A stretch of 64,000 nt of DNA from Echinococcus granulosus (lineage: Eukaryota; Platyhelminthes; Cestoda; Cyclophyllidea; Taeniidae), in NCBI RefSeq assembly GCF_000524195.1, contig NW_020170502.1:131916-195915 (forward strand), written 5' to 3'. Numbering within the stretch: position 1 is the first letter of the stretch; each line of letters opens with the position of its first letter. This document shows positions 24,563 to 50,626 of the stretch, piece after piece. The position numbers and the translations under genes are program-made. The notes beneath the pieces were generated by a model. It worked only from the letters and a program-made list of their open reading frames with translations, did no database searches and was not told the origin of the DNA.

Positions 24563-24854
24563 TCATTCCGCGGTATCATCAGAGGCCAGTAGGACACCCT
24601 TTGAGCCGCGCCAACTTGCCTGCGGTCTCTCTGCTATCTGACGGAAATGCTAAAAAGAAATGATTTGTTAAAAGATTTGCTACTGAAGTTGCGTAAGTAG
24701 AAAGAATTTTCCTCACAGGCCGTCGTAGACTGAAAAGAGCGAGGTCGGGTCTGCGACGTCGGAGGAAGACAATTCCAATGAGAAGCAGAATCAGGAGGAT
24801 TAGGAGAAGTGAAACTACGATTGCCGTTACGCTGACAACCTTTGGATGTGGTGC
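24563..24854 (-). other. Transmembrane helix and cytoplasmic tail (exons 29-30)
   Basis: Exon 29 encodes a hydrophobic stretch (VTAIVVSLLLILLILLLIG) followed by a stop-transfer cluster RRRR and then DLALFSLRRP. A donor gtgagg at 24716 and an acceptor TTTCTTTTTAG (AG at 24651-24650) define a 67-nt intron. Exon 30 then encodes about 28 residues ending DDTAE before TGA. Reading through the intron also stays open and would give a different tail, so both forms are possible. Confidence 0.75.
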
Positions 24855-27800
24855 CTGAAAAGATTATCACGTCAGTTGAACCATATAAATTCTTTTTGGG
24901 TGGAAAACTTCTGCCAATTCTACAAGGCAGAACTTAGAGATCTTCGTATTTAAAAGTGCTGTAGGTCTAGATTTGTCTTTTGACTTACTGGAATGTACTT
25001 AAATGTTGCACTGGTATAGTATATTCGGCCATTTGTGAAGAGAATCGGTTTCTCCTCCACCTCCATATCGTTCACTAGCAGCGTCTCCTAGATGAGAATG
25101 CAATGCAGACAATCCATAAACCAACATATTTATTCTGAAAAAGAGCGCACAAAATTTTTAGTCGGCCCGTTTTTCCGCTATCCTTCTTCTTATCAACATC
25201 CATTACTTCCACAGTGTTATTTCCTAATCTTTGCCTCTAAATCGCGGATAAAGGGTCTTGCTAAACTTGATGAGATCTTTATTATCAGGACCACATTACC
25301 TAGTTTGCTTACGCTAGCCGTAAAGCGAACAATCTCTACCCTTTCTACAGGCTCAGCCAACCTGCACTTTATGATATGTGAATTCCGAAAAGCAGGAAGG
25401 TAGCTAAGAACGTGATGTAGAATGCAGGGCCTATTGTGTAGCAATGACCTGACATATTTAGAACCGCCTATTTAGCTGCACCAGCTCTTCTGACTCCAGA
25501 ATTTGTGTCTACTACCTTCTGTGACATGGACCGGCAGTCATGATCATAGTTCCCCAGCTCCAGGAAATGTTTAGAGCCCTGCTAGACTGCACCACAAAGA
25601 GCAGCCTCACTCATTCCCATTTCCTTATGATCACATACCGTATTGTTAACAGTAATAAGAGTTCCGTTGAGACTGATGAGGTGAGAGATCGGTGAGTCGA
25701 TGAATTTACGGTACTCTCCTTCACTCCACAGCATAACGATATGTGAGGAGATTTCGTCGCATGTTTTAAGCAGCTTCACAGGAAAGAGAAAAATCAAATG
25801 AGTAAGTGTAGTAGCAAAGAAGAAGAGATAAAAGAGAGATGAGTTTGTCTTCGGGTAGACACTCATCACTACTCCCCGTCAATTTTCCCGATTGAGACGC
25901 CAGCAAGGTGTGGATTCACCTAGTCCCAGCTACTGCCTTCGCCATTCATCTCTTTCGCTCAACTGCCTCTTCCATCTCTAAGTTGGCTATATGGTGTTCG
26001 GACTATAATATCAAGAAAGGGCAAGAATTCCTCCCTTTTCACGGTCTGCTCAGTTGATGGACATGCCAATGGGGCCTTTTACCAGTTCCTTCTGGGGGCA
26101 ATAAAATTTAAATAACTCCACTAGGGCTGTTCGCAACCTCAGAAAAACGTGATTATATGAATTTCCAGAAGCAAAATTGTGACGCTACTTTCGTATCATT
26201 GTTGGCAGCATTAAACTAAAGCACTAATCGCTCGCAAGAATGTGCCACGGCCGATGTGTCTGGTCGCGTCTTCAGAGCAACCTTAGAGCTACTCCAAAAC
26301 TACACCACCCATTCTTAGACCCAAACAAAATCTGCATTGCAAACATAGGGAGGAAAACTCCAAACATCTTTGGAGAGGAAGCAAAAAGCAACCTGGGAGC
26401 AGATTGAAAGGGTGGAAGGCAATATCAGTAAATTGACAGTGCTTTACATACCTCTGGTGGTGCAAAGAGAATAAAGAACCTCTTTGGCTGTTGTAAAACC
26501 AGGGATTTGAAGACCTCATCATTGAAACAGCCAAGATGCTGCAACATGTATTGTGGCAGATCCTTCTCCGCTTGAAGACTCGAGTAGATGTCAAAGTGAC
26601 ACTTCTCGCCATCTTCAATCGTACCGGGGACACAAATACAGGTGGGAACTGGAAAGAGAAAAAAGCATCGCAATAAATTCTTCTGTCAATTTCGTCCATT
26701 GGTAGTGAAATAGAAAGCGTTGATAGCAGCTTCATTTTGGTTAAATGCCATTTTATGCCCACATTTATGTTGGACTAAAAACAAAAGAAATTTCCTCGAC
26801 CAAATCTGGTCGTTTTTCCCATTTCACGTGTTAGTGTTGCAAAATAAACTTTTCTTGGTCCAGTTTAATGTGACAAAAATGTACTGAAGCATACAAATCC
26901 CTTTTTTGCAAATAAAAGAAGTAATGCTTTATTTTAATCAGTAAAGCAGCCTTTGTTAGCACATTATTTTCATCACTAAAGGGATTATTTCACCGGAAAA
27001 ATTCATCTTGTAGAAATTCGTTACAATTTCATGACATTAACAAAGTCATTTTCTGTCTAATCCTGTTTAAATTAAATAACGGGCACTTCTCAATAAGTAC
27101 CGGCAAACATGACTGACTTCTTTCCGGTTGTCTTAAATGAGTGCAAATAGTTTTGATTACCACTTTGGCTTTATAAAAATTTGCTCTGGTTCCTTTTTTA
27201 GCTATAAATATTACTTACTGACTGCTTTAATGATTTGTCTGCAAAACTTGGTAAAATATTTAAACTATTTGGCATTTTCCCTAACTGTGAAATAGGCCAG
27301 AAGCTATTTGGGTTCCAGTGGTTTGTACTTGCATCTTCATGGCGTGGTCATCCTCTAATATTTACCCTTCCGGTCTTTATTTTCAGTAAAGTTAAAGCTT
27401 TCTACAATAAGATGTAATTTTATAGGCGTTGGTGATTACATTAGCCAAGCCCCCACCTTTCCGATGGCCTTCACATGCTTTAATCGAGGATTTTATTGAA
27501 TCAACAAATCATAATAGGTTTCAATTAGCTTGTTTTTTAGAAAGTGTTCAAAGACTAGGCCGACCTCAAATTCGCCAATACTGTGTCCTCTAGGTCAGTT
27601 CTGTTTAACTCTGACCAAACTGGTCACCTTTATAGCTTCTGCACGTCCAGGTTGCGGTCACTTTGTGACATTGTTAGAGCTCAAAGCTGATACTACATTG
27701 GCAAACTATTTATGAGTCTCATCCAACACAATTCATTTTATCCTGGCAGATTTCAAGGCGGATGAGGAAAATTTTCATCCCATGTTCTGCACTCTTATCT

Positions 27801-30800
27801 CTCCACGCCACTTATAAACATTCAGCTTACTGATATATCTTTTTGGAGAAAAAATCCGCAGCCTCTTTAATAAAGAGTGGAACACACGATCAAGGATGCA
27901 ACTGGGAGGACCTAGGCCACTGCAATTTGACTTACCGCCTTTCCTGATTTTGCATCTGCTGAAAGGTTGACAGGTGTGTGCACTGCACTGAGGAAGGCAA
28001 CTAAAGCCATCTCCGACGAATCCCGGTTCACAGACGCATGCCGTTTCCTCCTTCTAGGCATTTTTTGTCAGAAAAAAAAGGAAGCTATGGCATCTATTTA
28101 TTGTATATTCAAAACCACAAATTCTTGGTTTATCTAATGGCATGACCATGCAGTTTGGTGTATCTTAACACACTAATTAATCAGCTCTACTGCTTGTCAA
28201 GTAATTCAACGAGATGCACTAGTGACGCCGGAATCAAAGGTCCCTCACCTCTTAAGGGACCTGTCAAAGTTTTAATGGCTGACACAGGGGAGTGGGCAAG
28301 GAAAAGGTCAAGAGTGGTGCTCCAGAAAAAGGGAAACAGGAACTGAATGTCTAACTACACACGTCCACTAGGAATTGATGTCCATGGGTGGTATTATAAA
28401 AAATGATAGTCCGAGCATTTTAATTAAAAAACATTTAAGAACGCAAACACAATCTCATTTTCGTGCCAGTTTGTTTTTTCAATTGATTTTAAGGATTTTT
28501 TATTTTAAAAATGAGGAATCCCATGAGAACATTCATCCAAAGTCATTAACCAAATCTCTAACGTCCTGATGGTATTAAGCAGGTTGGAGTGCCTACTTAC
28601 AACAAAATAAGTAGTGTTAATTTCCCAACTCACTGTTCTGCTTATGAACGAGTGCTTCCTGCGTGTCTTGCACTCGGCGTGTACATGGCAGAGGTTGGCG
28701 CAGTAATCAGTGAGCGGAGTAATCTGCCGACAGACGCGAACACCGTCGCCAAAGTAACCCTTCTTACATTTGCATGAAAACCGTTTGAAAGGTCGGCAAA
28801 TAGCGTTCTCGGCGCAACCACATTCACCTGGTTTGTAATGAACAAAAATACACAGATAGAATCTGACCAAACAGGACCCACAGAGTGAAAATGAAAGACA
28901 GGTGTTTTGTCAATGGTTTCTTTTTTTTTACAAATGGCGAGAGGAACAAAACTTTAGTGTAAAGCTCCGTATAAATGAGCTCCAAAATTATGGTTTAGAA
29001 GCAAGAATTTGGAACAAACGAAGTCATTGACTTCTTCAGACCTAAACAGCTTATTCAGAGATGTTCGGGTGTGCACTTACTACTTGAGACGGTGGACGGC
29101 ATCTCTCCTATTACTGATTCAAATAAAGCAATTCAAACCCCCTACTCACCAGCCAACCACAACGAGAGCGCAGTGCTGCCCGGTTCAAGCAATTCATGCA
29201 GCATGTCACGGTCTTCAGTAGAAGAATTTGAAGTTACAACCTTCTGCATTTGGTGATAGTAGCACAGTGTCATTACTCCTGGCTCTTCAAAAGGCGGTGG
29301 CATCCACCGCTGACGCTGGCGCTGCCGCTGTCGCCGTTGGATGCCTTCCTCATCATCGGATCCCTCAACTAGGTAAGGATCCAGCAGAGTTGGATCCAGA
29401 TACGTCGTCACCTGAGTAACAGATACAGAAGCATGTGTTCCTACTAACAGCAGTAAAGTAGGTGCACTTACCAAATCAGAACTAAATGAGTTTTTTCAAT
29501 AGTTTATGCGATTTGCATCCCAAGATGGTTTCACCAGTCGATTTTAACACTTCAGTCCCCGTCTTTTAAACCCAAGGCAGATGCAGAAGACGTGAGGGCT
29601 GATAGTAAAACCCTTCATTATTTGTATAATAGTAATGACCACGGATCTCTACAGGCCAAAATATTTTCGTTTTTTGCTTTTGAACCACCTAATTGCCGTA
29701 TTTAAACAGTAGTACACACCACACATAAGTTTATGGATGAATGTAGCAGAATCGACAAAATAGAGGCCAATTTTGGCCATACACTACAATTATTTATCTC
29801 CTCTCTTCTATACAGAGCTCTAAATATATTTATGAAGCAATGCTCCCGACACACCTAACTTCCTAGTGGGCTACGCATTTGGTGTGTACTGATGGAATTT
29901 AAGTAGTAGCACACGCACGTACATACCTGTTCATGTTCGATAAAGGTGCCTGGAATACTGGAGCATAGGCTGGATCCAGCAGGAAGATACATGCCCCCAG
30001 AAAAGCCGGGCAAATCCACCAACAGCTGTTTATCCTCACGGCAGCAGACTGAGTAGTATGTGACAGAACGCGAGTCACTGGGCATGGTGATTGACTGTCC
30101 CTCAATTATCTCGCCATAATCGGTGGCGTTGTGAATCGCACGCAGGTAGCTACGTGGTATTCGCATTACCAGCTCGTTAGATGCGTCTGAAATGGTGCGG
30201 GCATACGTGCTACTTAAAAAAATAAGTAGCTCAGTCGACAGGCTCACAATAAATAATTTTTCAGAGGAAATCGACAAGAAGGATGCTCAAGTCACATCGG
30301 AGCTTATTAAAGACGAGAACAGCTTAGAAATGGCAAAAAGTGAAGCTGTTATTCCCCATACCTCCCCAAAACATTCACTGACATGTTCCAGCAACTTCGG
30401 TACCGAATTCTTAAGAGTATGGGAAGCCGTCTTAAGGAAATGAACTTTAAATCATCACTAATTCTAAAATAAGGGTCACTCTAATCTTCCACTGCCTTGA
30501 AGCAATTCAGAACACTCCAGTCCATTGTGGGTAAATGAGCCTTTTCAGCTCAGCGCACCAGTGAACTCTGCCATGCCGATCTAAAGAGAAAGCTGTCTGT
30601 TCCTAAATTACTCTATCCACAGCTAACACAGACGGCAAATCCTCCTGTGGAATAAAACATCGTCACCAAGTACATCAGTCGTACGTCTAAAGTTAAGTAG
30701 TTCTCAAATTTGGTGCATATTATGGGCTGGAAGTCTTCACAAACAGTGACTGCTGCTAACAGACTTTCAGACCATCTCAGTGGAATATTTGCATCGTCCA

Positions 30801-33800
30801 AGTGTTTTACTGTACTCAAAATTCGTCTGCATTCGCAAGCAAGAAGCTTCTTTCGTCGCTTCACGTTACTTTATGCATCCGCTGCTAATATTACCTGTCG
30901 TTGTGATCAACAGCAACTAAACGGTGGCCTACTACTCCTCGTATTCCAGTCGTGTGAACAATTCTCCTCCATTCAACTTTTAGAGTAAAGGAAGATAAAA
31001 CTTTGCACAACAACTCACGCATTTCAGGAGGACAGATGGCGCCATTCACAATTACACAGTAGTCCCCCTTAGGCCAGGAGATAATTGTTTCACTAGATGA
31101 TTTATTATTGCGTTGGCAGAAGTGGAGCATGACTGTCGAACCCGAAGCCGATTCTCCGCCACTTTCAATGTCAAATTCCTCCTCGTGGGTGGAGTATTCG
31201 TGAAGGATACGATGAAAGCCAACAGGACAGGCGAACTTGAAAGGTGTGGATGAGAGCTCGGAATCGTTGGCATTAAGTGCGTGAATGGACTGACCGCGTT
31301 TTCCAATAGGCAGGAGGTAGTCACCAGGAGGCCAGCTTCTACGAGTTTCGAGCCATTCAAGTGGCAAATAGTGACACAAACTATGGATGTGAGGATCCAC
31401 TGAAGAAAACAACAGAATAACGTATTTTTCGGCCTGCAAAAGAAATAAATTTTTAATTGAAAATGAATTTTTCATTTGGATTGCTCTCATTGAAATGGCA
31501 TTAAAGCTGCTTATTTAATTCAGTAGTGCGCGAAAGTTGAAGACAAATGACAATCGGTTGGATTTCAACAACCTACGTGTGTATTCTCAATGGGCAAACA
31601 GGCAAGCTCAGGTTCGTCAAAAGCTCCCATGAGGAAGAAGTCGCCAATGAAGGGCAATTTCACTGGGAAGGTAGGAGCGCTGCTTGCCATGTGACAGCAC
31701 AGCTCAGCCAGCTGGCGTGTGAAACGGTGCAGTCCTGTCAAAAAAAAAAATACAGGAGAGAACACTTCTAAAGAACAGTACCAAAGGCGTATAGGAAACA
31801 CTTTCCATTATCAAGGTTTATTGTCCTTTATGGCGCGTCTATCACTGATCTGCGATTTTGGCAGTTTTGCTACATCTTATTCCCTTGAACCCAGCGCATT
31901 CGTTACTGGCATCACACGGCTTAATAAACTCTTCCTTCGACAGAAGTCATTTGATGTAATGACTACTGTTTACGTACAACTGAAATAAATAAGCAGATAC
32001 CTTGTGGGCAGGTTCTTTTGTGTAAATCCATGAGAACACAGTAGTTGCCAGGTGGCCAATCGGGGAAAGACGTGAGATTGTACGCTTCGGGCACATCACT
32101 GGCATTGCGTTCACACGTATGTAACGTCGGCATTGATGTCTCATTGCCTAGACCGAAGACCTCATCGGTAGCTGACGGTTTTTGCGTGAAGTACTCAGCA
32201 AATGACATCGGACGGAAGAAAGTATTGGCGATCACGTCCGATCGAATGTTGTAGCGAATGGCCAAATTGAATCCTGGGGGACAGGCGAGCCTGCCATCCT
32301 CGCGTATTGTCGTGAGAAGTGAATACGAACCCGCTGGCCAGGCTGTTCCGTTATTCTGTTCCACTAATGTGAAAGTTAGGTATTACTTAAAAGGTTAAAG
32401 TAAAAAGTATTTTATCAATAAAATCAGACGCTTACCCTCTGGTGTAGGTTTAGATTCAGGAACGGCTGAAAGAGACCGTGGAGATATGATTTGAGAAGTA
32501 TTGCTCGTCTTTAATGGACGAAAGACCCAAAACCAACGCTACTTTGACTCACTTGATTCGTAGTAGCAAAGGTTTATCTTCACGTTGCAATGATCAGTAG
32601 ACATGGAGAGGGTTGGTGTGAAGCCCTCAATGTGATACGTCTTGTCCACAACCTCCATTTGGAAGGCGTAGGAGTGGACAGTGCCTACAAGAAACTCGGG
32701 TGCATCCATGCATATATACTCCTCGGTTGCACGCAGTCCAGCTATCTCCTGACACGTCTCTCCAGCTCTGTGGGGAAAAAATGATTTTATCGATGAAATA
32801 TGTTGTCTTCTCGCTGCGATACAGGTTCATCATGTTGTTGTCCTCCCTTTCTCACCGATGAATACTCGCGGTTAGAAATACTGAATTAACACGATAAAAC
32901 AATGCTTACTACATGACGGGACCCCTGTGGCATTGCAAACTTTATTACTGATCTTCCAGCCTTCATGCCTTTTAGACACCTTTAGGGGTAATTTAGGCGG
33001 TTTAATAACTTTACATCATTAAGCACTTATAAATTTTAATAACTCTGGCTCATATTCGCTGATCATCAACCTACCTGTATAGATAGAACGGTCCGGTGTC
33101 ATTCGGGAACCCCGTGATAGGAATTAATGCTGAAGGTGAATCTGCACGACAGCAGAACATGTAGGTGACACGATCGAAGGACAAACCGGTGTCGGCTTTC
33201 TCTACCTTATCACGAAATATGCGTGGCGCATTGTGTGTCGATACCTCAGCACCCATCGGTAGGTCAGAGATGTCTATAGTTGCAGGATCCACGCCTTCTT
33301 CGGTTTCGTTGGGTTTGAGGAGACCTTCAAAGACGGAGAGGCTTCCAGCAGTGAATCCTGAAGAGGAGACAAAGTAAAATAGGAGAGTTTTTTGAAAAGG
33401 ACGGCAATTCAATTGCTTAGACCCTTCAATTGGCCAACATTGGATAGCCGTACTGATCAATAACGCCTGACGCCAAGGACTGATTGCGAAAGGCCCCAAG
33501 AGTAATACTTACTGTAAGAGAGATAACGCAATCGCAAATGTACAGACTCCTCAACCTTCAGGTGATTCGCGAAGTCTACTCATATTTATGGTCCTCCCAG
33601 TGCTTCAGTGTGGATCTCTCAGGCCTGCTTCCAGCCTGATATAACTTACTAGATCGTCGTGGGGCACTCAAGACGCTACAAGAAGAGTCTTACCGGCTGG
33701 ACATCGTCTGCCGACGAGAAGGACGCAGTAGTGTCCCGGTGGCAGAGAAGTGGTGTGTTTCTTATTCCATTGAGATGGTGAGGTTTCAATTTCTCGGTGA

Positions 33801-36800
33801 CAGTAGCTCAATTTTACTGCGCGGGAATGTGCGATGAAGTCACCTGCCAGATGAATGGGCTGAAGAAGTGAAAAGACAACACCTCCAGTGATCAATTCTG
33901 CTTGAAATGCTGATTACTTCTGGGGTGTGGTGAATGGATCCGTCTTAACGGATACAGTGACAAAACCCACGTACCTGTGAATAGTGGAAACCATTACGAC
34001 CTTGAAGGTGGATGAAGGTGGTTGAGGTGAAGTCCGGTGGACATCCGGTTACTGGCTGCGGAATGGCATAGTTATCAATTGGCCAGGCTAACAGGGTGCA
34101 AAATAGAAGCCGTTCATTATTCCACTTACTAATGTGCTACTAGACCTGAAAAGTGCAAACGTCACATATGTGTGACGCAAATAGTGAGCCTGTTATATGC
34201 ATAAATTTCACCACTTGAGTCGTTTTATTGTCCACAAAAGTGCAACTTACAAACACCAGTGTTCGGTTCTGCCGGTCTGTTCGTCTGATATTCACAGAAA
34301 ATGGCATGCAGTAAGCCATCCTGCAACCACATTCCCGTTCTCCTTCCAAACGCTTCCTTACTGTCATTCATGCCTGCAGTGACATTCAAAAGGTGATGGA
34401 TCGAGGGCCTTGCAATCAGCGTCTTGTAGCGTTTAGGTCGCCACATTTTGACAAATCGTCGAATGAGTGAGTACTGCTGAAATTCAGGACATCCCTCGTC
34501 TGTTTCGGGTTGTTTCAAGTCCCGATGCAGTTCTGTAGGCGCAGCTAAATCCTTAACCTTTTCCTCATCACCTGCACTTTTACGACCGAGGGTGACAATA
34601 GCACGCACGTGCTCTGGCCAAGTTGAAACACGCTGGAATGTTGTCGGCGTGTTCTGGAGGTGGGAAGGTTGTTTGACACAGCAGACGATGTATTGCTGGT
34701 AGGGGAATGCGGACACCACCTCGAAATCTACGGTGTAAGAAAAATGGGTGAATGGATGGATGGATACGTGGTGGACGGTCCAACATGTGAATGAGACACA
34801 GCCGTACACCCTCCCCTACTGATTCAGGCAGGTAATATTCATCCATTCAACTCACCTTCATTAGGACATGTTGCAAATACTACGAGACAGTAGTTTAAGT
34901 AGCCGTGCTCCGTTCTTGTAGGCACTTCAGTTCCGCGCACCTCGTTATAGCAAAGTTCCATCGCGTCGTTGGATGAGAAATCTTGCATCGGTGTTGGGAT
35001 CAGCCACAGCCTTCGATGGCGCATCATGAAGTTGCGAGCTCGAGAAACTGGAAAAAAGTTTGGGAATAAGCTGCTCTTTCTGCTGTCTTGATTTGAACAA
35101 TCGGTGCGAAATCTCGGATTTTAGGTTAAATCATCGAAGCTCAAGAATGTGCGGCTTTCAGTTGACAGAAGTCGACAAAATCCAGTAGATCCATGTCGTT
35201 TAGGCTTACCCGAGTTGAGGGCCCAGTTGTCACTACAGGTGAGAACGATTTCTGTTTTACCACGAAGATTACTGGGAAAAACGCGACGAGGCCAGACCAC
35301 AATTGACTCCGGTTGTTCTATAAGTAAAAAGGATTGACGACGCCAAAATAGGAAGAGAAGAAGTTGCAGGACTACTCACAAATATAGTGAGTAGTATTGA
35401 GTCATGTAAGTGAATTTTGCAATCTGTTTTGCCTGAAAAGTGAGTTGGTTTTGGAAGTTAAAAGGAAAGTTAGCACTTTAAAGGGAGGACGGCTGGGAGA
35501 TAATTACACCACCAGAACTATGGAGGAGCGACTTCCGGTCGTCCGCCAAGTACTGTAGTCTGTAAATTGACCAGAAAGCCCAATTTTTCCGCCATCAGAT
35601 GAGCCGTGGACACTGGCTCAAGGATGTGGGAGTTGGCAGCTAATTTTGCGCAGTGACGGTACTGCAGTCAATGAAGCTCCTTTTTTCTGCCTCATCAAGA
35701 CAGTGGATGACGAGGACCGATGGTCGCGCCTCCACTCGCATCGCATCTCATCGAATTGAGGCAATTTTAGATAGAATGCGGCTAGCCTATCGTGACACTC
35801 CAGTTGTCACCACTACTTAGAGGGTCATCGGGTATAAGGACAGCTCGCGTCTCATTTACGTGCCGCGGCCGAGGCTGACACCGAACAGGAGCAGCAGCAG
35901 CAGCAATCAAGAACTCAACAAATGGAGGCGCAGTAGTGGTGTTAAAATGACCGCACCGGGGCAATGGATGCAGAGTACTTTGGCCACCTAACTATATCCA
36001 CAATTACAAAGAGGAGAATCCCTCTTGTGACTCACTTGACCCTTCACCCAGCCCCCCTCACCTGGACTAAAGTACCAATCTTTTCATAGATCACCTTTGC
36101 AGTACGTAGTCCAACCGCCCCCATGCAGAATTCTGAACCAAGTTTCCACGACCCAAGGTGGCTTACAAATCTATAAGCTGTCAGTCGAATCATCTAGCAT
36201 TGTGGATTCGCGATGGACGCCTAACCACGATATTATTTGATCATAAGACAAGCCTGTGAAAGGAGGTGCAGGCGCCGTCTTTGCAGATGACAAAACGTAA
36301 ACAGTAAACAATCTTTCATTAACTGAGGCCGTCAATTATTTGGGGCATTTAAACTAACCTGTGATAGGCGTATACTCACAGAATCCCTTGGTCTGATCCA
36401 CTGTGAACCCGACAAAGCTCTGGCAGGATGCCTGTAGTGCAGGCAATGCAAACGATGCCGTTATGTTGAGCGGCAGTTCAATGGCACCCAGCGACTCCTC
36501 TGACTGACAGCAGAGCTCCTTTTCGTCGTTTAAGGCCGGCGAGGGCAGAAACATCGTTTGGAGGAGAAAGGAGCGAACTAGTCCTTCGAAAACGCTGGTC
36601 TGCAGTTCAGGAAGACCTACAGAGTGCAAGGAAACAGGCGAATGTGTATGTTGAACTGCTTACTCGCTGGCAGTAGGCCTTGTGAGGGTAAAGGACTCTC
36701 AAACTACAAAATTCTTCTGCGCAGAACTCACCAAAGCTATCAATTTCCGAAGAATTTGGTACAATCAGATAGGATTTACCAAGGCATGACACGTGTCACA

Positions 36801-39800
36801 TATATGTGACGCCAGCACCTGACCGTCTTAAATGTCTCGATTTTAAGTTACATTGGTACCTCGCTCCATTTTTTGACACCGCTGATGCTGTGAACAATCT
36901 ATACAGGCTTAAAAGGACTACGTTCAGGAAAAATATGCGCCTGTAGATTGAAATGACTACAAGTTGAAAATCGACCACTTAATTACCGGGTGGACAGACT
37001 TTCGCAGTTCTGTAGAAACAATAGGATCCAGTAGGGAAGACGATGTTAGTGACATTGACAGCACAGGTGGTCCCAGCATCGTGCAAGGTATGAACGGTTG
37101 GAACGGGACGTTCACCTACCCCTCGACAGAAGCCTTGTGGAGCAAGAATCCCAATTTCGTCTACAGCAGAGAAAAAGGAGGAACTGTAGACTTGACACAA
37201 AAAGAATGGAGTCTGATCCCTCAGCGTTCGATTTAAAAATGTATTTTGACAATGCTTGGCGTTTGCCCTAGGAAACAGGAACAGATAAGGTAAATCGCAA
37301 TGTCACACATATGTGACGCTTATGGGGAACACGCTAGGCTTAAATTGCCACACTTCCAAGCAAAGAGACGAATTAAGAAGTAAGCGGCTAACTAGAGGCG
37401 CTTAATTTGAGGCACACTAAGGTGTTCTATCCATGATGATGGAGCGTTCCATCAGTTGGGACATCTGCTCTCCTTTGTAGAGCACTGACCTGTTCCCATT
37501 CAGTGAATGAAATGCGTGGATGGGGACTGCTCGATGAGGAGAAGTGACATACCTCGGGGTTGAGAATACTTGCAGAGGGCTAAGACTCCTCGCACCCCGC
37601 TCATGGATTCTACAAAGTCGACTGGATTGTTCTGACCAATCAACTCCAGCGTCAAGTAGGACTCAGACTGCATTGTTGGTCTCTAAAGGGTTGCACACCG
37701 AAAAAAAAACAAAAAGAAACAGACTTGAAAGGTTAGGGTTAGCAAGTTGTAATCTGGAGGTATCTATGCAATGACGGCCTGCTCAATCATTACATTTTCT
37801 TCTCTGCCACCTTGGGATTGACTTCAGTGAGAGGGTCGGAAACGAATCGTCGTCCAGGGAGGACACTTTAATTTTGGAGCCTTTTGCATGGGAGTAGCCT
37901 TTTATCTCTACATCTTATATCAATCGTTCAATTTAATGCGGGATTTTTTTGGTTAACACCAGAAAAGGATGCGTATGTGATGATGCCAATCAGGACACAG
38001 ATTTTGGGGTCAGTCCAGTCTAGACATCGACCCCGAAACCATCAACTAAAAGGCTTACTCCTTAACGAAGGCGCATGATACAAACCGTCAGGTAGCTACT
38101 CTTGTAAAGAAAACTTCAAGCACAGTACGAGAATGTCATGTTGACACCACTGTACCTGACCAAAACTTTCAAAAGATGACTACCCTGGCAACACCGACCG
38201 TGGAATTCGTGATTCCTGCGAAAATCGGATCAGGCTGTGCAACACCTTCATCCCAAATATCCAATCGACGCAGTAAACGAATTATTCTGTAGATAAGGTG
38301 GTTGAAAAAATTAATTCAGCCTCCCTTACAGCCAATGTCTAGGCTTCTGAGGTCAACTCCCAACAGTCCCTGTTTGTCATGAACGCCCATACCGAAAGAA
38401 ATTAAAACTGCCTAATAGACTTACAAAATCCGCAGTTAGTTTAGTTCCTCGATCAGAGTAATCTGGGCAGCTTCCGCTAAGGATTAAAATGGCAAAAGTT
38501 GGCACGGATCGGAGGTAGTAGGGGAGAGGGAAGGTCGGAGTGGGACCGCTGGAGCTATCTGTCCTATCTGTTGCTGATGAAATCGGTGATCCATTGCTGG
38601 CTAAAGTGGCACCCCGACGACAGCAGAAGTATATAGTTACCGATTCGAAGTCGTGGGCTGATGCATTACCGCCGGCCCAACGCAATTCAGTCTTATCGTA
38701 ACCTAGGGGGTTACAAATAGTTGGCGATTTATTCCAATACTGGACGATAGAATTATTCCATCAGTGAAACTAATGTTTAAGTGAGTCAACTTGGCTCCGC
38801 CCCAGTTCCTAACTCGAATTGTCAAAGAGCAGAGGACCATGACACGGAAATACTGGCTAATTTCTGCTGACCTTGTTGTGGATACTAGCATGTGATGTTG
38901 GCCGATCAAAAAGGGCTCATCGAGAAATCTAATTGCGAAATTAACCATGTGGTCTCCCACAAGTAAACATATATGTGACACCCGTAGCGTACATTTTGAT
39001 TGGTTTCGTATTTACACATTTATGTAGAAAATAAACAAGACACCCTTACGTGGAAATAAAAGGCTCATAAAACGATTCAAGCCACCGAGTGGATAGCAGT
39101 ATCTCTTCAATTAGACCTAATCTTCTTCGAGTATTTTCTACTCCCTGTAAAGTGTTCCATTCACCGTTTAAATCATAAATTAAACATTTTGACATTTACT
39201 AGAAGTCATGAAATAACTTAATTTACCTGAAGGACAGTAATATCTCTTCAATGGAGTTCCATAACTGTCTTCCCCCTCCTGCTCCTCCTCATCATCCGCC
39301 GTTCCATCTAGCTCCTCTTCATTATTCCCCTCACCACGACTCACCAACTCACGAGGGGTGTGGGAGATGAAGCACTGATTTCCATCGGGCAAAAGCTTGT
39401 CAATGGCGTCATGACGGTAAATGCCGTCGGGTTTGCAGAGGATGAAAGCCGCACGAAGGTAGTAGAACATGTGATGGGCTTTGGTATTGGGTGCCGGAGA
39501 GAAGTGAGGTGGACAGGTCTTGCCCTCCACCAGAATGCTTGGAATTAGTGCTGGGAGGGAGGGGGAGGAGAGGAGAAGGGGAAATGCAGTCTCTTATGCT
39601 TATTGTAGGGTCAAGGTCAATCAGTCACGCGAGATGGGAACCACTCCGACTCCACTAGCGAGTCAGACAGCTATCATCCACGCACACGTCGTATCCTCGT
39701 CGAAGTGAAATGAGGCAAAAATACCAAGACACGCAACTCACTTTTGTTGGGCTGGGTTGATGGTGGTGGCGGTGGTTCCTCATACTCATAGTACGCGCAC

Positions 39801-42800
39801 ATCAAGGTGTAGTACCCATAGTCCAAAAGCGTAGCCGTTAGATTGGACGGTCTATACGTGCCCATGGTAAAGATCTTTCGACGCGTTCCATTCACCGGTG
39901 GACAGCGTTCAATAGAGAAGAAAAGTGGTGTGTCTCTGGACACCGGAGTCGTTGGACTGTCGTTAAGCATCGAATCCTCAATGGGTTGTGAAAGTGATCC
40001 ATGCGACTCCCCATGGATCCAGGGTGCCAGGGGATTCGATCGAGGGTGTGTAGATTTGTAGGCCACACTGGATCGTGGAAACTTGGTTCGAAGTTCAGCA
40101 TGGGAGCCATTGGTGCAGCAAAGAGAGAGCCAAATAGATGTGAAGCCCTCTTGACGAAACATGCTGAATTTTCCCTTGGCTTTCAGTTTGGTACGCATGA
40201 AGGTCCTTTTCATATCGAAGCCTGGAAATGAATGGGAGATGCAAAAGCCAACTGATACAGGAGATCTACTCCTCCTCTCCCCTTGATTATGCCTAACTAA
40301 TTGACATTAACTCGACACAGTTGACATCTTTTGTCCTCTGGTTGGGACCTCCAAATTTGAAGGGGTTTAAAGCGGAATAAAAAGCGTTCCTGAACCACTC
40401 CACCTTGCAGGAAGGTGGGAAAATTTCGACAGCATTCCATTCTCTTAACAAGAGGTAATATAGCTTTATAGAATTGATTTGTCTGAAGGTCCATGAGTAG
40501 AGGGCTGTCCATATTCCACAATTTAAAAACCATCTAGGAGAGTGCGCCCAATACCCACCAACACCGATCGCTGATCTGTTGAATTTGTGACTCACCTTTA
40601 GGACAGGTCTCGCGGTTCTGATTAAGTAGAAACATACAGAAACTCCTGAAACGACCTTTCTCCGTATTTCGCAGTCCCTTAGCGGAGAGTACACAGTAGA
40701 CTGTTGAAATTTCACCCTGTGGAGAGGTGGTCTTCCCCACTTGAGTCAGGAAGCCCGGTGGACATTCATCTCCAAAATCCAGGGGCAGCCCTATGTGACT
40801 TGAGTGATCTCAAAGAAGAAAACAGGTAAGGTATTTATCGATACGTTAAGAAAACCCGCAATCGGGGTCAAAGGTCAACATGTAAGCTTCGTTAGTGTCA
40901 CTCGATTTGCTCTAAACACTGACTTAGAAGGACCCATGAAAACAAAGCTATGCGAAGCTGTATGACAGGAGCGATGTCTATTGGGCACTTCTTAGGATGG
41001 GCATTTCTGTCTCGTGAGTCGTCCCCACCTACACACTGAGCATCCCACCTTTAAAGTCAAAATGGGGCCAAAAGAGGCGTCAACAAGGCGAGATGCATAA
41101 ATTTGTGTGGACAAAAACTTTAAGGCTCCCTGACACTTTGCTCTAACCTGTCAGCAATGTTTTGGAAGGATTGTATATACCCAAAGGCGTCTGCCAAATG
41201 TAAACAATGCAAACGACCCGCTTTAGTCAGCCGCCGCCACACATTGCTCTTGTTTAAAATTGTGGGGAGAGAAAAAAAACAAAAAACAAAATACTGCACT
41301 TTTGTCCACAGCATTGTGAAATTTGTGTGCATGTGCTGGTAAACATGTGAATGCGAACGCAAACGGTTCTCCGAACTCATGTCTTTTTANNNNNNNNNNN
41401 NNNNNNNNNNNNNNNNNNNNNNNNNNNNNNNNNNNNNNNNNNNNNNNNNNNNNNNNNNNNNNNNNNNNNNNNNNNNNNNNNNNNNNNNNTACAGGATAGA
41501 GGCTAATGAGATGACTGAAGGCATCCATACATCCAGTCACTTACCACACATGTCCACTTTGCATGGTGCTCTGCGATATCCTACTGTGGTGTGGTACGTA
41601 TTTATCGAGTTGCCCGTGTACGAAACCGTGGACACGTAGCACCATGGCTTGGCCATTCGACCCTCCGGGTTGCGACAACTTCGAAAGTTGACAACGCTCA
41701 AAGCGAAGCTGGAGACTGGAGTTCGATTTGTTGGTGAAGTGTAATTCACAATCACCAAATACGGAGTTCCTGGCTTCAAGACACTTACGCGGATTACGTC
41801 TACCCATGGAACACATATCTACAAGAGAAGAAGACAGACATAAATCAGAATCAGCTAAATTCCTTCTTCTGTCCACATTCGCTTTGGGTACTAATATTTC
41901 TAACAGATCGGATGGTTGGATATAACAATACGATCATCACCTGAGGAAATATGAATCTGAAGAAAATGGATAATGAGGATAGGCGAGCTTTTTCTTCCCC
42001 ATTCCCCCCCTTGCATCAGGAATAAAGTGCACATCCCCCAGGTAGTTTTTTAGGGTACCCACTGTTGCCTACTTATAGCCGATTGAATAATCCTGTCTGG
42101 TTCTAACGAGGAAGATTGTTTACCGAAAGAGAAAAGTTTCATTTTAGGTTCTCCGTCCTTCGACACAAATAAACGTATTATACCGGAGGAGGGTATACTT
42201 AAACGTGATGCATTTGTCAGTATCCAAGTCAAATCCACTAACCCGTCAGAAAACACCTCGTATTTTCCGAATTTAAAAAAAGGCAGTTTCAGACTTAAAG
42301 CTGCAGTAACTTTAGTCAACAGGGCAGACTCGAGTCCTATCTACACGATTCAACCTGCATTAAATGTCACGCGTATAGACATGGAGAATAGTTGGGGACA
42401 AGTTTGGGCCTACTGCACGGATAGAATGATGCGAATTAGAGAACAAACACCAATACACAAAGTTTTAAACTGCCTAACAAGTGAATATCGAACTGAACCA
42501 TGGCGAAAGTTAGGAAACTCTGACCCAAAAACCTGATCCACTTGTCAAAGTTGTAAGGTTAGCTGAATATACCACAAAATCTGCATAAAGTAATATTATA
42601 ATTACATTTGTTTGCAAAAACGAGTCGGCAGCATTTAAATACGAACCAAAGAATAGTTTTACTCAACCGTTAATGTCTTGTTAAAGTTGCTTACTTGACC
42701 ACCCTCGGCAATATTGGCATCTCCAAGATAATCCTCGCCAACACCCTCGTAGCAATCAATAAGGTGCTCTGAAGGACAAAAAAATTTAAAACAAAATCCT

Positions 42801-45080
42801 TGTTTGTCAGCTGTCGGTACAGCATAAAGATGCAATCCTTTCAGCTGTCAAGGGTTGTGATTCCCTATGGTCATGTCTACAGCCTGGAGATCTTTTCCCA
42901 TACCAACTTCTGACGAGACTGGACGATCCGCATTTGTAGCCATGGTAAGCAAGACCGACTCAAAAAAGATGCATATAAAAGATAATATCACATAATAGTT
43001 GTACATTTAATCATGCAGAAACCTCATTATTCGTGGTTGTTCCTGCTACCAATTGACGGCATGACCTACGGATTCTCGTTTGTTCTGTGCACGAACAAAG
43101 GGTCTTCCAAAATAGTTCTGCCCATCTCATTTCTATGAAGAATCAGGTTGTGCTTGCTAATCAAATAAACTACTCCAAATTTGCTCCTGGTTTTTGTTAA
43201 TCAAATTCAAATGGTTCACTCAGTAGCAGCCGACTGTTGATTGGCTCATTATACTTACAAGGTCAATTCCGTTTATCTACTCAAATGCAAGCAACCTAAC
43301 AATTCTTTCATAACAAGTAAAAGTTATTAAACATTATTTTTTACAAATATTTGACGTTATTTTGCAATTTATTGCGAACTACATGAATTATACAGAGCTG
43401 ATTTAAGTCAAAACGGGAATATGACGCGTACCCCGTGGAAATACACATTTTCGTGATGATATCACACACACGGTACTAGGTGGGCAGTAGCTGTGGCATA
43501 CGTTAGGACGCAGTCAATGCCAGACACCGTAATTAAGATGCTTAGCCAGAGTAGTGGCGTGCGCATATCTGAAATGGAATGCGTGTGTGCGAAAATGGCT
43601 GAAGCGTCTTGCGGATGGTGTTATAAGTCAGAACCCTCGGGGTTATTGGTTGCGTAGGAGACTTCGAGCACGTTTTCCATGGTGATACGAAGCTAAGTTA
43701 CTCAGCACGTTTCAAAGGCGTCCCTGGCTTGCCAATGACTTATTCCTACGGAATGCCTGAGCTCCGGATATTCGAGTACTAAGTTGTCGTGTGTCGAAAT
43801 TACAGGAAAAGTGTGAGATCGGTATTCTTCTTGAAATCAATAAACGTATTTGTTGATGATCACTCTAACAAGCTAAAGGTCTTGAGCACGCCAGGTACTT
43901 GGAGAACTGTCCATAATTGTTCCTTTGCATTAACAGAGTTTTAAAAATGAACAAATGTATGTATGCCTAGTGAGCAATGAGTGCTATCCTAATTTTGGCC
44001 ACAAAACTTTGCTATCACATGCAGTTTCCGCAAGATTGTCCGGCAGAGCCGCGAGTTGTATAAATTGATGCAATTTGATGCTGCTAGCAATGAAGCTGTT
44101 TAACCACACGGCTTTGGTGAGAGGCAAAGAAAAAGAGGATTAAACACTGCATTTGTAAACAATCGTTTGTAGATCCTTGATAGCAGCGGGTGCAGCTATG
44201 TGGTTTCTTTTGGGAAATAGTGATCACTTTTGTTTTCTCAAGATAATGGGTCAGTATTTGCAGTTTTATCTATTAACACAAGTCGGATCCAGAATTGGCC
44301 ATTGCATCTACGAAATACGCAATTTAGAGCACGATTATCTCAAAAAAAAGAAAACACATGGCTTGTGAATCAGTAGTCTGAAGATAAAGGGATTTCCCAC
44401 GATCTAATATCATCAAATAGATTGCCGAACGGAAGGAATAATGGTTTAATGGTTGGACGGAAGGATGGATGGGTGAATGGATGGATAAATGAAATCGAGA
44501 CTGTTTAAATGAATGATTGACTGAAAAATTGAAGTCTTTAATGATTAATTTGCCATGTGAGCGGAAATATGGTCAATCCGCTCACAGCTTTCTGTTTATC
44601 TGGCACAAATTAACAATGATCAAACCGTTATTACACCAACCGACGAAGCGTAGTCACTAAATACATTGTCCCTGATTATTCTATCCTAGGCATTCTAACA
44701 AAACAATCCCGTGGATATTTTACTCTTACTACTTCTCATACATAAGATTCCAAGAATAGCGATTCAAACTCACCACAATGTGGAACTGCACAAGTTCCAT
44801 ACTTTGCCCTCGTAACCATACACCAAGGACCCCGTGGATCATCATCCGGATTTCGACAGTAGTTTGACTGCTCCTGCAGCACCGAGGCATTCCAACTGCT
44901 TCGTAGATGTAGGTGGGTAAATTCACTCCACGGCAGACAGGGTTCGCCAGCTGCCGTATGATTCAGAGTCCCGTTGTAGGGCGGTCCACTCTGTGTATAG
45001 CAGTCCATTGTGGACGGCTGCCCTACCCCAAGGAATGGCCATGCGAGGAGGAGAAGAAAGCCTAATTTTAGCAGTGACAT
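24563..45080 (-). CDS. Giant kringle-ApeC-EGF-FAS1 type I membrane protein
   Basis: Thirty GT-AG exons join in frame (6522 nt, 2173 residues). Exon bounds, 5' to 3', are: 45080-44774, 42768-42695, 41818-41545, 40808-40596, 40221-39742, 39550-39227, 38702-38425, 37682-37553, 37160-36987, 36616-36359, 35317-35210, 35047-34856, 34727-34251, 34087-33975, 33859-33694, 33357-33075, 32767-32553, 32465-32436, 32363-32001, 31734-31577, 31433-31019, 30186-29927, 29411-29150, 28827-28634, 28053-27936, 26648-26452, 25773-25639, 25087-24989, 24854-24717 and 24649-24563. The order is signal peptide (MSLLKLGFLLLLAWPFLGVG), two kringles, seven ApeC-like units, three EGF-like modules, FAS1, a transmembrane helix and a short tail. 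It should sit on the cell surface with a very large disulfide-rich ectodomain. ApeC proteins elsewhere bind bacterial cell-wall material, and FAS1 and EGF modules mediate adhesion and scavenging. A recognition or adhesion role is inference. The start is chosen because it opens the signal peptide. The model rests on splice phases without transcripts. Confidence 0.82.
24989..26590 (-). other. Fasciclin-like (FAS1) domain, exons 26-28
   Basis: The H1-like motif is FFILFAPPE in exon 26. Exon 27 gives SHLISLNGTLITVNNT, the strand region typical of FAS1. Exon 28 gives the H2-like motif VNDMEVEEKPILFTNGRIYY. The domain spans about 125-135 residues, close to the usual 130. Following EGF modules, this is a stabilin-like arrangement. 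Confidence 0.7.
26591..28827 (-). other. Three EGF-like modules, exons 24-26
   Basis: Module 1 (exon 24) runs from CGCAENAIC to CKCKKGYFGDGVRVC. Module 2 spans exons 24-25, from YCANLCHVHAEC to CVCEPGFVGDGFSC. Module 3 spans exons 25-26, from CSAHTC to CICVPGTIEDGEKC. All end with the Gly-Asp-Gly-like turn seen in stabilin and related EGF repeats. Confidence 0.8.
29150..31334 (-). other. ApeC-like unit 7
   Basis: The unit shows the opening WPPGDYLLPI and FACPVGF, the second WPKGDYCVIVNGAICPPE, the double cysteine YYSVCCRED, MYLPAGSSLC and a terminal LCYYH. A basic low-complexity run (alternating Q and R) is inserted in exon 23 before the last strand. Confidence 0.75.
31335..32465 (-). other. 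ApeC-like unit 6
   Basis: Motifs in order are AWPAGSYSLL, RLACPPGF, FPDWPPGNYCVL, RTCPQG, AELCCHM, GDFFLMG and a terminal SLCHY. A tiny 30-nt exon (32465-32436) supplies the linker TVPESKPTPE before it. Confidence 0.75.
32553..34087 (-). other. ApeC-like unit 5 (best match to the ApeC consensus)
   Basis: Motifs are WPIDNYAIPQPVTGCPPDF, LPPGHYCVLL, RRCPAGF, VTYMFCCRAD, GPFYLYRAGETCQEIAGL and a terminal INLCYYES. Their order and spacing are those of apextrin C-terminal domains, and this unit was the key to identifying the others. Confidence 0.85.
34161..34176. repeat. Copy of the 16-bp palindrome
   Basis: GTCACATATGTGTGAC lies in an intron of the kringle-ApeC gene and is followed by GC. Confidence 0.6.
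34251..35047 (-). other. ApeC-like unit 4
   Basis: Motifs are LWLIPTPM, MELCYNE, LNYCLVVFATCPNEG, QQYIVCCVK, DEGCPEF and a terminal AIFCEYQ. The unit lacks the WPxGxY tryptophans but keeps the cysteine order. Confidence 0.65.
35210..37160 (-). other. ApeC-like unit 3
   Basis: Motifs are LAPQGFC, TTCAVNV, VFPTGSYCFYRTAKVCPPG, KELCCQSE, FALPALQASCQSFVGF and a terminal IVLTCSDN. A phase-compatible candidate cassette exon lies inside it (35987-35811). Confidence 0.65.
36795..36810. repeat. Perfect 16-bp palindrome GTCACATATATGTGAC
   Basis: The 16 bases equal their own reverse complement and are flanked by CGT and GCC. Related copies occur at 34161, 37302, 62437 and 17553, with a partial copy at 38967-38979. 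Confidence 0.7.
37302..37317. repeat. Copy of the 16-bp palindrome
   Basis: GTCACACATATGTGAC differs from the perfect palindrome at one position and is followed by GC. It lies in an intron between ApeC exons. Confidence 0.6.
37553..39550 (-). other. ApeC-like unit 2
   Basis: Motifs are GKTCPPHF, AFILCKPDG, LLPDGNQCFI, RYYCPSGY, VTIYFCCRRG, PYYLR, SGSCPDY and a terminal VLALCKYS. An acidic insertion (EEELDG to EEEQEGED) and a Ser/Thr-rich stretch enlarge it. Confidence 0.75.
39742..40808 (-). other. ApeC-like unit 1
   Basis: Motifs are DECPPGF, STVYCVLS, RSFCMFL, ETCPKGF, IWLSLCCTNG, LFFSIERCPP and a terminal YTLMCAYYEY. Exon 5 (480 nt) is the largest exon and a proline run follows the unit. 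Confidence 0.7.
41390..41489. other. Assembly gap (100 N)
   Basis: A run of exactly 100 N lies in the intron between kringle 2 and ApeC unit 1. Missing sequence could hide an additional exon, although exons 3 and 4 join in phase without one. Confidence 0.99.
41545..42768 (-). other. Kringle domain 2, split by an intron
   Basis: Exon 2 gives CYEGVGEDYLGDANIAEGGQ and exon 3 continues ICVPWVDV, then NFRSCRNPEGR, KPWCYV and APCKVDMC. All six kringle cysteines are present. The segment between the second and third cysteines is about 45 residues and differs strongly from kringle 1. Confidence 0.85.
44774..45080 (-). other. Signal peptide and kringle domain 1 (exon 1)
   Basis: After a hydrophobic leader the exon encodes a full kringle: DCYTQSGPPYNGT, EPCLPWSEFTH, NYCRNPDDDPRGPWC, GTCAVPHC. 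Six cysteines and the NYCRNPD-GPWC core identify it. Confidence 0.93.
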
Positions 45081-49210: not shown

Positions 49211-49900
49211 TTAAAAGAGCAGAAAAGCTAAAAAGCACATCAAAACGAGCGCAGAAGGTGAATTGGCCATGAAGGAATCCAAGACCCAGGTGAAAGTCTC
49301 CTCATACGGTCGCATAATCCACGGTTCCTCATCCAGCGGAAAATCACCCTCACTTTCCAAATGTTGGTAGGGTTGGAGCTCCGAGTAATTACCCGAGGGG
49401 TAGTAACAACAAACAAGCACGTGACGTTTTACCCCCTGATCACAGACACTCCTCTCACATCCGAGGTACTCTGTATCAGCCCAAATAATCTGCCTATACT
49501 GGCCACAATAGCCCCCTCTGCAGATATTCAACTCAAAGTCGAAGTTGTATCTGTTAATGTCCCACAGGTTAAAGAAAGTCTCTATGGAAGGCGGTGCCTC
49601 GTTCAAATCACGCAAACCTTCGGTAGATATCATCGCGATATTGATGCCCACATAAAATAGAGGTTTCTCCTCTGGGATAGCTGGATCGGGGAAGCCCCAG
49701 GAGCACCTTTTGGCCCAGAACCGAGCATGCTTTTCCAACTCGGAAGACCAGAGCAGTGGGCGCATGTTAACGGCAGGTGGCTGCACACCCACACGAGCCG
49801 AGACGTGGAGGAAGGTGAGCATCTCTCGATCACTCGTTGAAATAGCCTCCACGAGGGAGGTGATAAGCACAAAGGAGTGAAAGAGAAGGTACAAAGGCAT
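49211..49900 (-). CDS. CAP-superfamily (SCP/TAPS, venom allergen-like) secreted protein
   Basis: A single open exon encodes 229 residues from the ATG that opens a signal peptide (MPLYLLFHSFVLITSLVEA). An upstream in-frame ATG would add 46 basic residues before it and is less likely. CAP landmarks are the helix-1 region LTFLHVSARVG, WSSELEKHARFWAKRCSWG, the signature GQYRQIIWADTEYLGCE, and the CAP2-like VLVCCYYPSGNY. The usual GHYTQ histidine is replaced by glutamine (GQYRQ), so the CAP cavity tetrad looks incomplete. A hydrophobic C-terminus (ALVLMCFLAFLLF) follows a small-residue stretch and suggests a GPI-anchor signal or membrane tail. Flatworm VAL proteins are secreted or tegumental and are often multi-exon; lack of introns here is notable. 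Neighbours do not suggest a shared pathway. Confidence 0.85.
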   Translation of the reverse strand: MPLYLLFHSFVLITSLVEAISTSDREMLTFLHVSARVGVQPPAVNMRPLLWSSELEKHARFWAKRCSWGFPDPAIPEEKPLFYVGINIAMISTEGLRDLNEAPPSIETFFNLWDINRYNFDFELNICRGGYCGQYRQIIWADTEYLGCERSVCDQGVKRHVLVCCYYPSGNYSELQPYQHLESEGDFPLDEEPWIMRPYEETFTWVLDSFMANSPSALVLMCFLAFLLF

Positions 49901-50626
49901 GGATCTGGTGTTGGACGGTTTTAAATCGACGCCATGCCTTGAAGTGCGCGACGGATGACAACAAATCGATTGAAGGCTTGAACGCTCGGAGCATGACGCA
50001 CGGGCTTTCAAACGCCTCCAGAAATCTCTTATAGTCAATCCAGGCGGGTTAATCGTAGAAACGTCTCCCTAGGAGTAGACCTAGCCTCCAAGGTGAGGGG
50101 TCCTCCGGGTGAGCACCTCAAGAAAATAACTCTATTCTGATCCTCTGGAAGTGCACCCCTTTTCTTTGGGCAGTTTTCGATCACCTCAAAACTCGTGCTC
50201 CTACTCAACTCTCTCAATTGGCCGGTGTCATGTAAAAACAGACATCAGACAACCCAATAGTCAAAGAAAATACCGCGACCAATTAAAGTACGACAAATAG
50301 GGGACAGTTAAACCCCCCTATGGCCAGCAGTCACGTACACACACGTCATGCACTCTGCTTACTCATCCACGTCGGTGAACAAAGACAGCTGTATCGAAGT
50401 CTTGTACCCGCATTACTCGAGTCGTTGGTAAGCCAATGGTATTCAGACCCACTGGCAGGTAAAAATGAGTTCACCAACAGTAATTCGACTATTGTGACCT
50501 AGGTCACGACAACTTCGATGGGTTATCTCAGCCTAATGATCTATGAGTTGACAGGCTGCTTGAAAAATTAACAAAGATCGACACAACGCACCCGTCCTGA
50601 ACTGGATTTCGGGGCACTGGCCATCT

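Follow-up and report, generated by a model that had tools for sequence, protein, structure and literature searches.

Gene structure and conservation

The analysed window is a 64,000-nt stretch of the Echinococcus granulosus genome (assembly GCF_000524195.1, contig NW_020170502.1, positions 131,916 to 195,915). Its minus strand carries a single gene of 30 exons, from 45080 to 24563, which encodes a protein with two kringles, seven ApeC-type units, EGF-like modules, a probable FAS1 domain and a predicted membrane helix. The spliced frame is 2,173 residues long and its sole stop is terminal. All 29 introns have GT-AG ends and 18 of them are phase 1. The exon chain was built by dynamic programming, which gave 46 exons including small spurious ones, and was curated by hand to 30. 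The original prediction, made from the sequence, had proposed 30 in-frame GT-AG exons and about 2170 residues; the same coordinates were recovered here. The public protein P0001, named "Plasminogen [Echinococcus granulosus]", is identical to the spliced model at 2,147 of 2,149 aligned residues from residue 25 onward, the two differences being I581M and P1603T. Since the alignment is ungapped, all 29 junctions agree with a separately deposited gene model. P0001 begins at M25 and has no leader, and its relatives P0002, P0004 and P0005 have hydrophobic leaders at the same place. Both the start at M25 and the name appear to be misannotations, which conceal the protein. A 100-base N gap (41390-41489) is intronic. 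The features, whose spans include introns, are as follows.

24563..45080, minus: whole coding span, 30 exons, 2,173 residues (spliced model; P0001 match)
45009..45080, minus: signal peptide-like N-terminus, residues 1-24, absent from P0001 (hydropathy; leaders in the three relatives)
44775..45002, minus: kringle 1, residues 27-102, plasminogen-like, most lysine-site residues kept (Pfam, alignments, conservation)
41546..42754, minus: kringle 2, residues 108-218, with six cysteines but without the acidic pair of the lysine site (Pfam, profile match to kringle 1, alignment)
39743..41545, minus: ApeC-type unit 1, residues 219-449, eight-cysteine order, phase-1 intron after CPKG, no Pfam match, weak profile match to unit 2 (25%)
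37557..39742, minus: ApeC-type unit 2, residues 450-692, eight-cysteine order, phase-1 intron, no Pfam match, profile 38% with unit 5 and 31% with unit 7, joint-profile score above 25 shuffles
36360..37556, minus: ApeC unit 3, residues 693-837, below the Pfam ApeC cut-off, profile 93% with unit 5
34252..36359, minus: ApeC_platyh unit 4, residues 838-1096, PF24148 E=2.2e-71, eight-cysteine order, phase-1 intron, profile against the other units not significant
32551..34251, minus: ApeC unit 5, residues 1097-1356, ten cysteines, PF16977 E=4.8e-19
31362..32436, minus: ApeC unit 6, residues 1366-1563, preceded by a 30-bp linker exon (32436-32465), below the Pfam cut-off, profile 97% with unit 7
29151..31361, minus: ApeC unit 7, residues 1564-1851, PF16977 E=4.3e-10
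26599..29150, minus: three EGF-like modules, residues 1852-1972 (PF12947 EGF_3, three stretches at E<=1)
24992..26598, minus: probable FAS1 domain, residues 1973-2098 (profile to TGFBI, sub-threshold Pfam, weak fold match)
24762..24842, minus: predicted transmembrane helix, residues 2104-2130 (hydropathy)
24566..24761, minus: short predicted cytoplasmic tail, residues 2131-2173, with RRRR and ASWRGSxGVLxAS (sequence and conservation in relatives)

Relatives were sought in a set of 5.8 billion proteins, with candidates limited to 0.55-1.75 times the query length and sharing exact words with it. The original prediction had suggested looking for the architecture in other flatworm proteomes, and it was found in four other tapeworms. 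The same five tapeworm proteins are used throughout: those of E. granulosus, Mesocestoides corti (78%), Anoplocephala perfoliata (74%), Hymenolepis diminuta (70%, partial) and Spirometra erinaceieuropaei (60%), the three relatives other than Hymenolepis being full-length. No trematode or free-living flatworm relative was found in this set, where the length and exact-word filter means that absence is not shown and short relatives are not covered. A split of the locus into separate genes, which had been named as one outcome that would undo the prediction, was rejected. The gene models (not reads) of the five species keep the modules together, and in four of the five they reach from the kringles to the tail; the Hymenolepis model is partial. 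In the public Anoplocephala model a CAP domain is fused to the kringle protein and the first cysteine of kringle 1 is missing, probably because two neighbouring genes were merged. Within the 103.6-Mb assembly of E. granulosus itself, the Kringle, ApeC and ApeC_platyh models match this locus only, in an exon-by-exon search of low sensitivity, which even here failed to detect kringle 2 and five ApeC units out of seven.

The original prediction had also pointed to a Pfam check of the spliced protein. Kringle, EGF_3, ApeC and ApeC_platyh score above their cut-offs, but Fasciclin stays below. The first four are found in all six rows, that is, the spliced model and the five public tapeworm proteins.

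Kringle domains

The two kringles each have six cysteines, as had been predicted. The Pfam Kringle match of the whole protein covers two stretches (1.3e-22, 80.4 bits against a cut-off of 34.3), with kringle 2 not scored alone, and the profile probability between kringles 1 and 2 is 98%, which served as the positive control of the unit comparisons. Among solved structures, the best alignments of kringle 1 are with plasminogen and HGF kringles. The best score belongs to plasminogen (5.2e-48, summed over its five kringles).

The pocket of a lysine-binding kringle has an acidic pair, a Trp, a basic residue at position 71 and an aromatic one at 72. Aligned to plasminogen K1, kringle 1 keeps the acidic pair D79 and D81, W86, the basic K93, Y94 and R60, and has Met at position 64. 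All rows share R60, D79, D81, W86 and K93; Mesocestoides has Phe in place of Y94. Among nine aligned human kringles of plasminogen and HGF, the full pocket set is present only in plasminogen K1, the alignment of K4 ending before positions 71-72. Kringle 2 has EGR, GGR or GGK at the place of the acidic pair; therefore, lysine binding by kringle 2 is not expected.

Among the modules, the largest share of invariant positions is that of kringle 1 (56 of 77, 0.73); the EGF block comes second (0.59). Compared with the four other species, kringle 1 is 91, 88, 95 and 82% identical and kringle 2 is 75, 68, 51 and 47% identical, while the ApeC units range over 53-90%. The figure for Anoplocephala counts a few residues that the fused public model has lost. 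In three of these four species, no other module is as identical as kringle 1. This conservation points to kringle 1 as the part that would have the strictest partner. The identity "plasminogen" itself was rejected for want of a protease match: among the 14 Pfam families matched by the six members (6/6) at E<=10, none is a protease family.

ApeC array

The seven ApeC-like units had been predicted from recurring motifs, and this is borne out in part. All seven have the cysteine order C...C...C...CP...CC...C...CxY, including the CC pair and the terminal C-x-Y, with eight cysteines in each and two extra in unit 5. Eight conserved cysteines are a hallmark of ApeC domains in the accessible text of two reports (PMC9585378, PMC8361754). 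The order is retained in only 0-11 of 20,000 residue shuffles per unit, and the 58 unit cysteines are all invariant across the five species. In each unit, too, a phase-1 intron follows the fourth cysteine at a distance of 2-4 residues. When 29 introns were placed at random, at most four of the seven units were hit in 200,000 simulations, and seven of seven was reached 0 times.

The Pfam result is narrower, since only units 4, 5 and 7 exceed a cut-off. The whole protein is above the ApeC (PF16977) cut-off of 26.5 bits, as are unit 5 (69.5) and unit 7 (40.2); unit 3 (22.4) and unit 6 (22.0) are below it, and units 1 and 2 have no Pfam match. Unit 4 spans the full PF24148 profile (1-182 of 182). 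Units 4 and 7 depart from the CPxG motif ahead of the intron that had been claimed for each unit; they have CPNE and CPPE, respectively. A WP-x-G/D motif is present in units 5-7 only.

In profile comparisons, five of the six pairs among units 3, 5, 6 and 7 reach 42-97%, and units 3 and 6 only 14%. ApeC units against non-ApeC modules give at most 1.3%. A joint profile of units 3, 5, 6 and 7 finds unit 2 (score 30.6 vs 24.4 for the best of 25 shuffles), barely finds unit 1 (21.1 vs 20.9) and does not find unit 4 (16.5 vs 24.4). With unit 2 added to the profile, unit 1 rises to 41.5% and unit 4 to 2.5%, values without a shuffle control. Unit 4 stays at or below 4% with every other unit, and its kinship is suggested by its Pfam family, cysteine order and intron, not by profile comparisons. 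Because the cysteine order and the phase-1 intron are shared, besides the Pfam and profile matches, it is concluded that these are seven tandem units of apparent common origin, of which unit 4 is the most divergent in profiles. Unit 5, the sole unit searched alone by sequence against the PDB, found no relative there.

Unit 7 contains a Gln/Arg repeat, QRRQRQRQRQR (about 29304-29340, minus strand; residues about 1789-1800), between its seventh and eighth cysteines. The repeat is shorter or broken in the relatives.

EGF, FAS1, membrane helix and tail

The three predicted EGF-like modules are matched by EGF_3 above its cut-off of 28.5 (33.7 bits for the whole protein and 42 bits for the C-terminal piece). 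The FAS1 domain of the original prediction is retained as probable. A four-species profile of this region reaches TGFBI at 4.6e-4, but Pfam Fasciclin remains below its cut-off of 22 bits, with 19.5 and 16.1 in two of four species pieces and no match in the Echinococcus piece. Among the six whole proteins, Fasciclin is found in one (E=0.056). A PDB fold search with the low-confidence model of units 5 to the tail returned 35 weak matches, none at E<=0.001; EGF-type structures come first and the fasciclin 1w7d is seventh (E 0.86).

Hydropathy gives two hydrophobic stretches only, at the N-terminus and near 2100-2135, with RRRR at 2131-2134 after the second. This agrees with the signal peptide and the transmembrane helix with RRRR that had been predicted. 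All four species whose C-terminus is intact share the tail motif ASWRGSxGVLxAS.

Proposed function and alternative explanations

Tapeworms are gutless and meet both host and microbes through the body surface. The gene product may be a receptor or adhesion molecule of the tapeworm surface that crosses the membrane once, in which kringle 1 would be a lysine-gripping head and the seven ApeC units a rod. The chance that this role is correct, given parts that are read from sequence, is judged to be about even. The signal peptide and membrane helix are predicted to insert the protein as a single-pass surface protein. Kringle 1 would form the head and bind lysine-bearing proteins or peptides. Disulfides may lock the ApeC array into a long rod, partly ligand-binding, above the EGF and probable FAS1 modules. 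Such a rod would hold the head at a distance from the surface and might contact the microbial wall or matrix, and the ASWRGSxGVLxAS tail may pass the signal on or anchor it inside the cell. The large, strongly conserved ectodomain behind the misleading name "plasminogen" would be a concrete candidate for contact with host or microbes.

Several observations weigh against this proposal. Three DXED motifs per domain are usual in ApeC; the exact D-x-E-D is present in none of the seven units. AlphaFold2 models of the first four units and of the stretch from unit 5 to the tail have a mean predicted local distance difference test (pLDDT) score of 29.7 and 32.2, too low to give a structure for the rod. 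The signal peptide and membrane helix are predictions by hydropathy alone. The Met at position 64 of kringle 1 stands where lysine-binding kringles have Tyr or Phe, and may weaken the pocket. Finally, Spirometra is an exception to the lead of kringle 1 in identity, with 83% in the EGF block against 82% in kringle 1.

An endogenous matrix or cell-adhesion protein of tapeworm tissues, in the tegument or basal matrix and with no microbial or host ligand, is a fairly unlikely alternative. The EGF and probable FAS1 modules would suit it, as would the best FAS1 relative, TGFBI, which is a matrix protein. Sea-urchin apextrin is likewise described as an apical extracellular matrix protein in the available text of PMC8361754, and a limpet mucus protein with ApeC and Kringle appears in that of PMC7333891. 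A passive matrix role is made somewhat less likely by the tail motif and the constrained kringle pocket, both suggestive of a specific ligand and partner. It is unlikely that the protein is a microbe-recognition receptor whose ApeC array binds gut peptidoglycan while the kringles are structural only. Lys-type peptidoglycan is the common ligand of the ApeC domains tested so far, according to the accessible part of PMC9585378. However, those domains come from short secreted proteins of molluscs and amphioxus, and the tapeworm units are divergent, units 1 and 2 having no Pfam match. The top share of invariant positions is also in kringle 1, whereas the array units have 0.33-0.58.

A more daring reading combines two observations. 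Tested ApeC domains bind Lys-type peptidoglycan, and kringle 1 has a candidate lysine pocket; the protein could be a two-part lysine reader, in which the array binds the peptidoglycan and kringle 1 clasps the free lysine of stem peptides. This is improbable, but if true, the surface receptor of a gutless animal would recognise bacteria through a plasminogen-type pocket, with the kringle as microbe sensor and the ApeC array as multivalent arm. It is very improbable that the protein is a plasminogen mimic that alters fibrinolysis by competing with the host protein for lysine sites. Plasminogen does give the best solved-structure score for kringle 1; however, the tapeworm protein has a predicted membrane anchor and no protease match, only one of its two kringles is a candidate for lysine binding, and kringle 1 is also kept in the gut-dwelling Hymenolepis and Spirometra.

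Comparison with known proteins

The tapeworm protein resembles plasminogen in kringle 1, which keeps most lysine-site residues. It differs in having no protease match, two kringles, an ApeC/EGF/FAS1 ectodomain and a predicted membrane anchor. Its FAS1-like sequence is shared with TGFBI (beta-ig-h3), and the EGF modules beside FAS1 above a membrane helix resemble the stabilins. Unlike TGFBI and stabilin-type proteins, it has only one weak FAS1, and those families are not known to have ApeC or kringles.

Like the known ApeC proteins (apextrin, amphioxus ACP1-5 and mollusc CgACP1/BgACP1), the tapeworm protein has the eight conserved cysteines, a Pfam ApeC match and a secretory route, the last of these predicted. 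In the available portions of the sources, those proteins have one or two units, in contrast to seven here; the tapeworm protein adds kringles, a probable FAS1 domain and a predicted membrane anchor, and lacks the exact DXED. ApeC is therefore extended from one or two copies to a seven-unit array of common exon structure. Flatworm ApeC is already in Pfam as the "ApeC, platyhelminthes" family (PF24148, ApeC_platyh), a one-domain family that here is the fourth of seven units.

The original prediction regarded the combination of a tandem ApeC ectodomain, kringles and FAS1 as not known from any report. Within the literature searched, this holds for the whole architecture, but not for every part. 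The limpet mucus protein P-vulgata_14 has ApeC and Kringle in one protein; unlike the tapeworm protein, it is secreted and has peptidase M12A, CUB, SUSHI, C-type lectin and ShKT domains, with ApeC listed once (PMC7333891, accessible text). Dual-ApeC modules in Platyhelminthes are mentioned in the available part of PMC9585378. Neither an array of seven units nor the combination of such an array with kringles, a FAS1-like domain and a membrane anchor was found in the accessible text of the literature searched, which excludes the main ApeC survey (Li et al. 2021, Mol Phylogenet Evol 155:107009). For tapeworms, the architecture is absent from the accessible text of sources including PMC9585378, PMC8361754, PMC8308605, PMC8935821, PMC10744797, PMC5775281, PMC7438934, PMC10855680 and PMC7333891, and the word "kringle" is absent from that of the tapeworm and helminth proteome papers examined. 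The domains are thus known, and the architecture is new as far as the literature was searched.

Other features of the region

A palindrome close to GTCACATATATGTGACGC is present at six places in the window (17554, 34162, 36796, 37303, 38965 and 62438). At up to three mismatches it has 11 matches in the window, both strands counted, against 0.11 expected. Four of the copies fall inside the gene span, three of them exact or near-exact and one weaker. Genome-wide, there are 262 forward and 303 reverse matches at up to one mismatch (a site may be counted once per strand), whereas the backwards control gives 0 in either orientation. Part of exon 5 recurs in intron 10 as a 97-nt inverted copy with 75% complementarity (36111-36207 vs 40017-40113). 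Upstream of the gene, on the same strand, lies an unspliced open reading frame of 285 residues (49211-50068, minus) with a CAP/SCP domain (PF00188, 9.9e-13).

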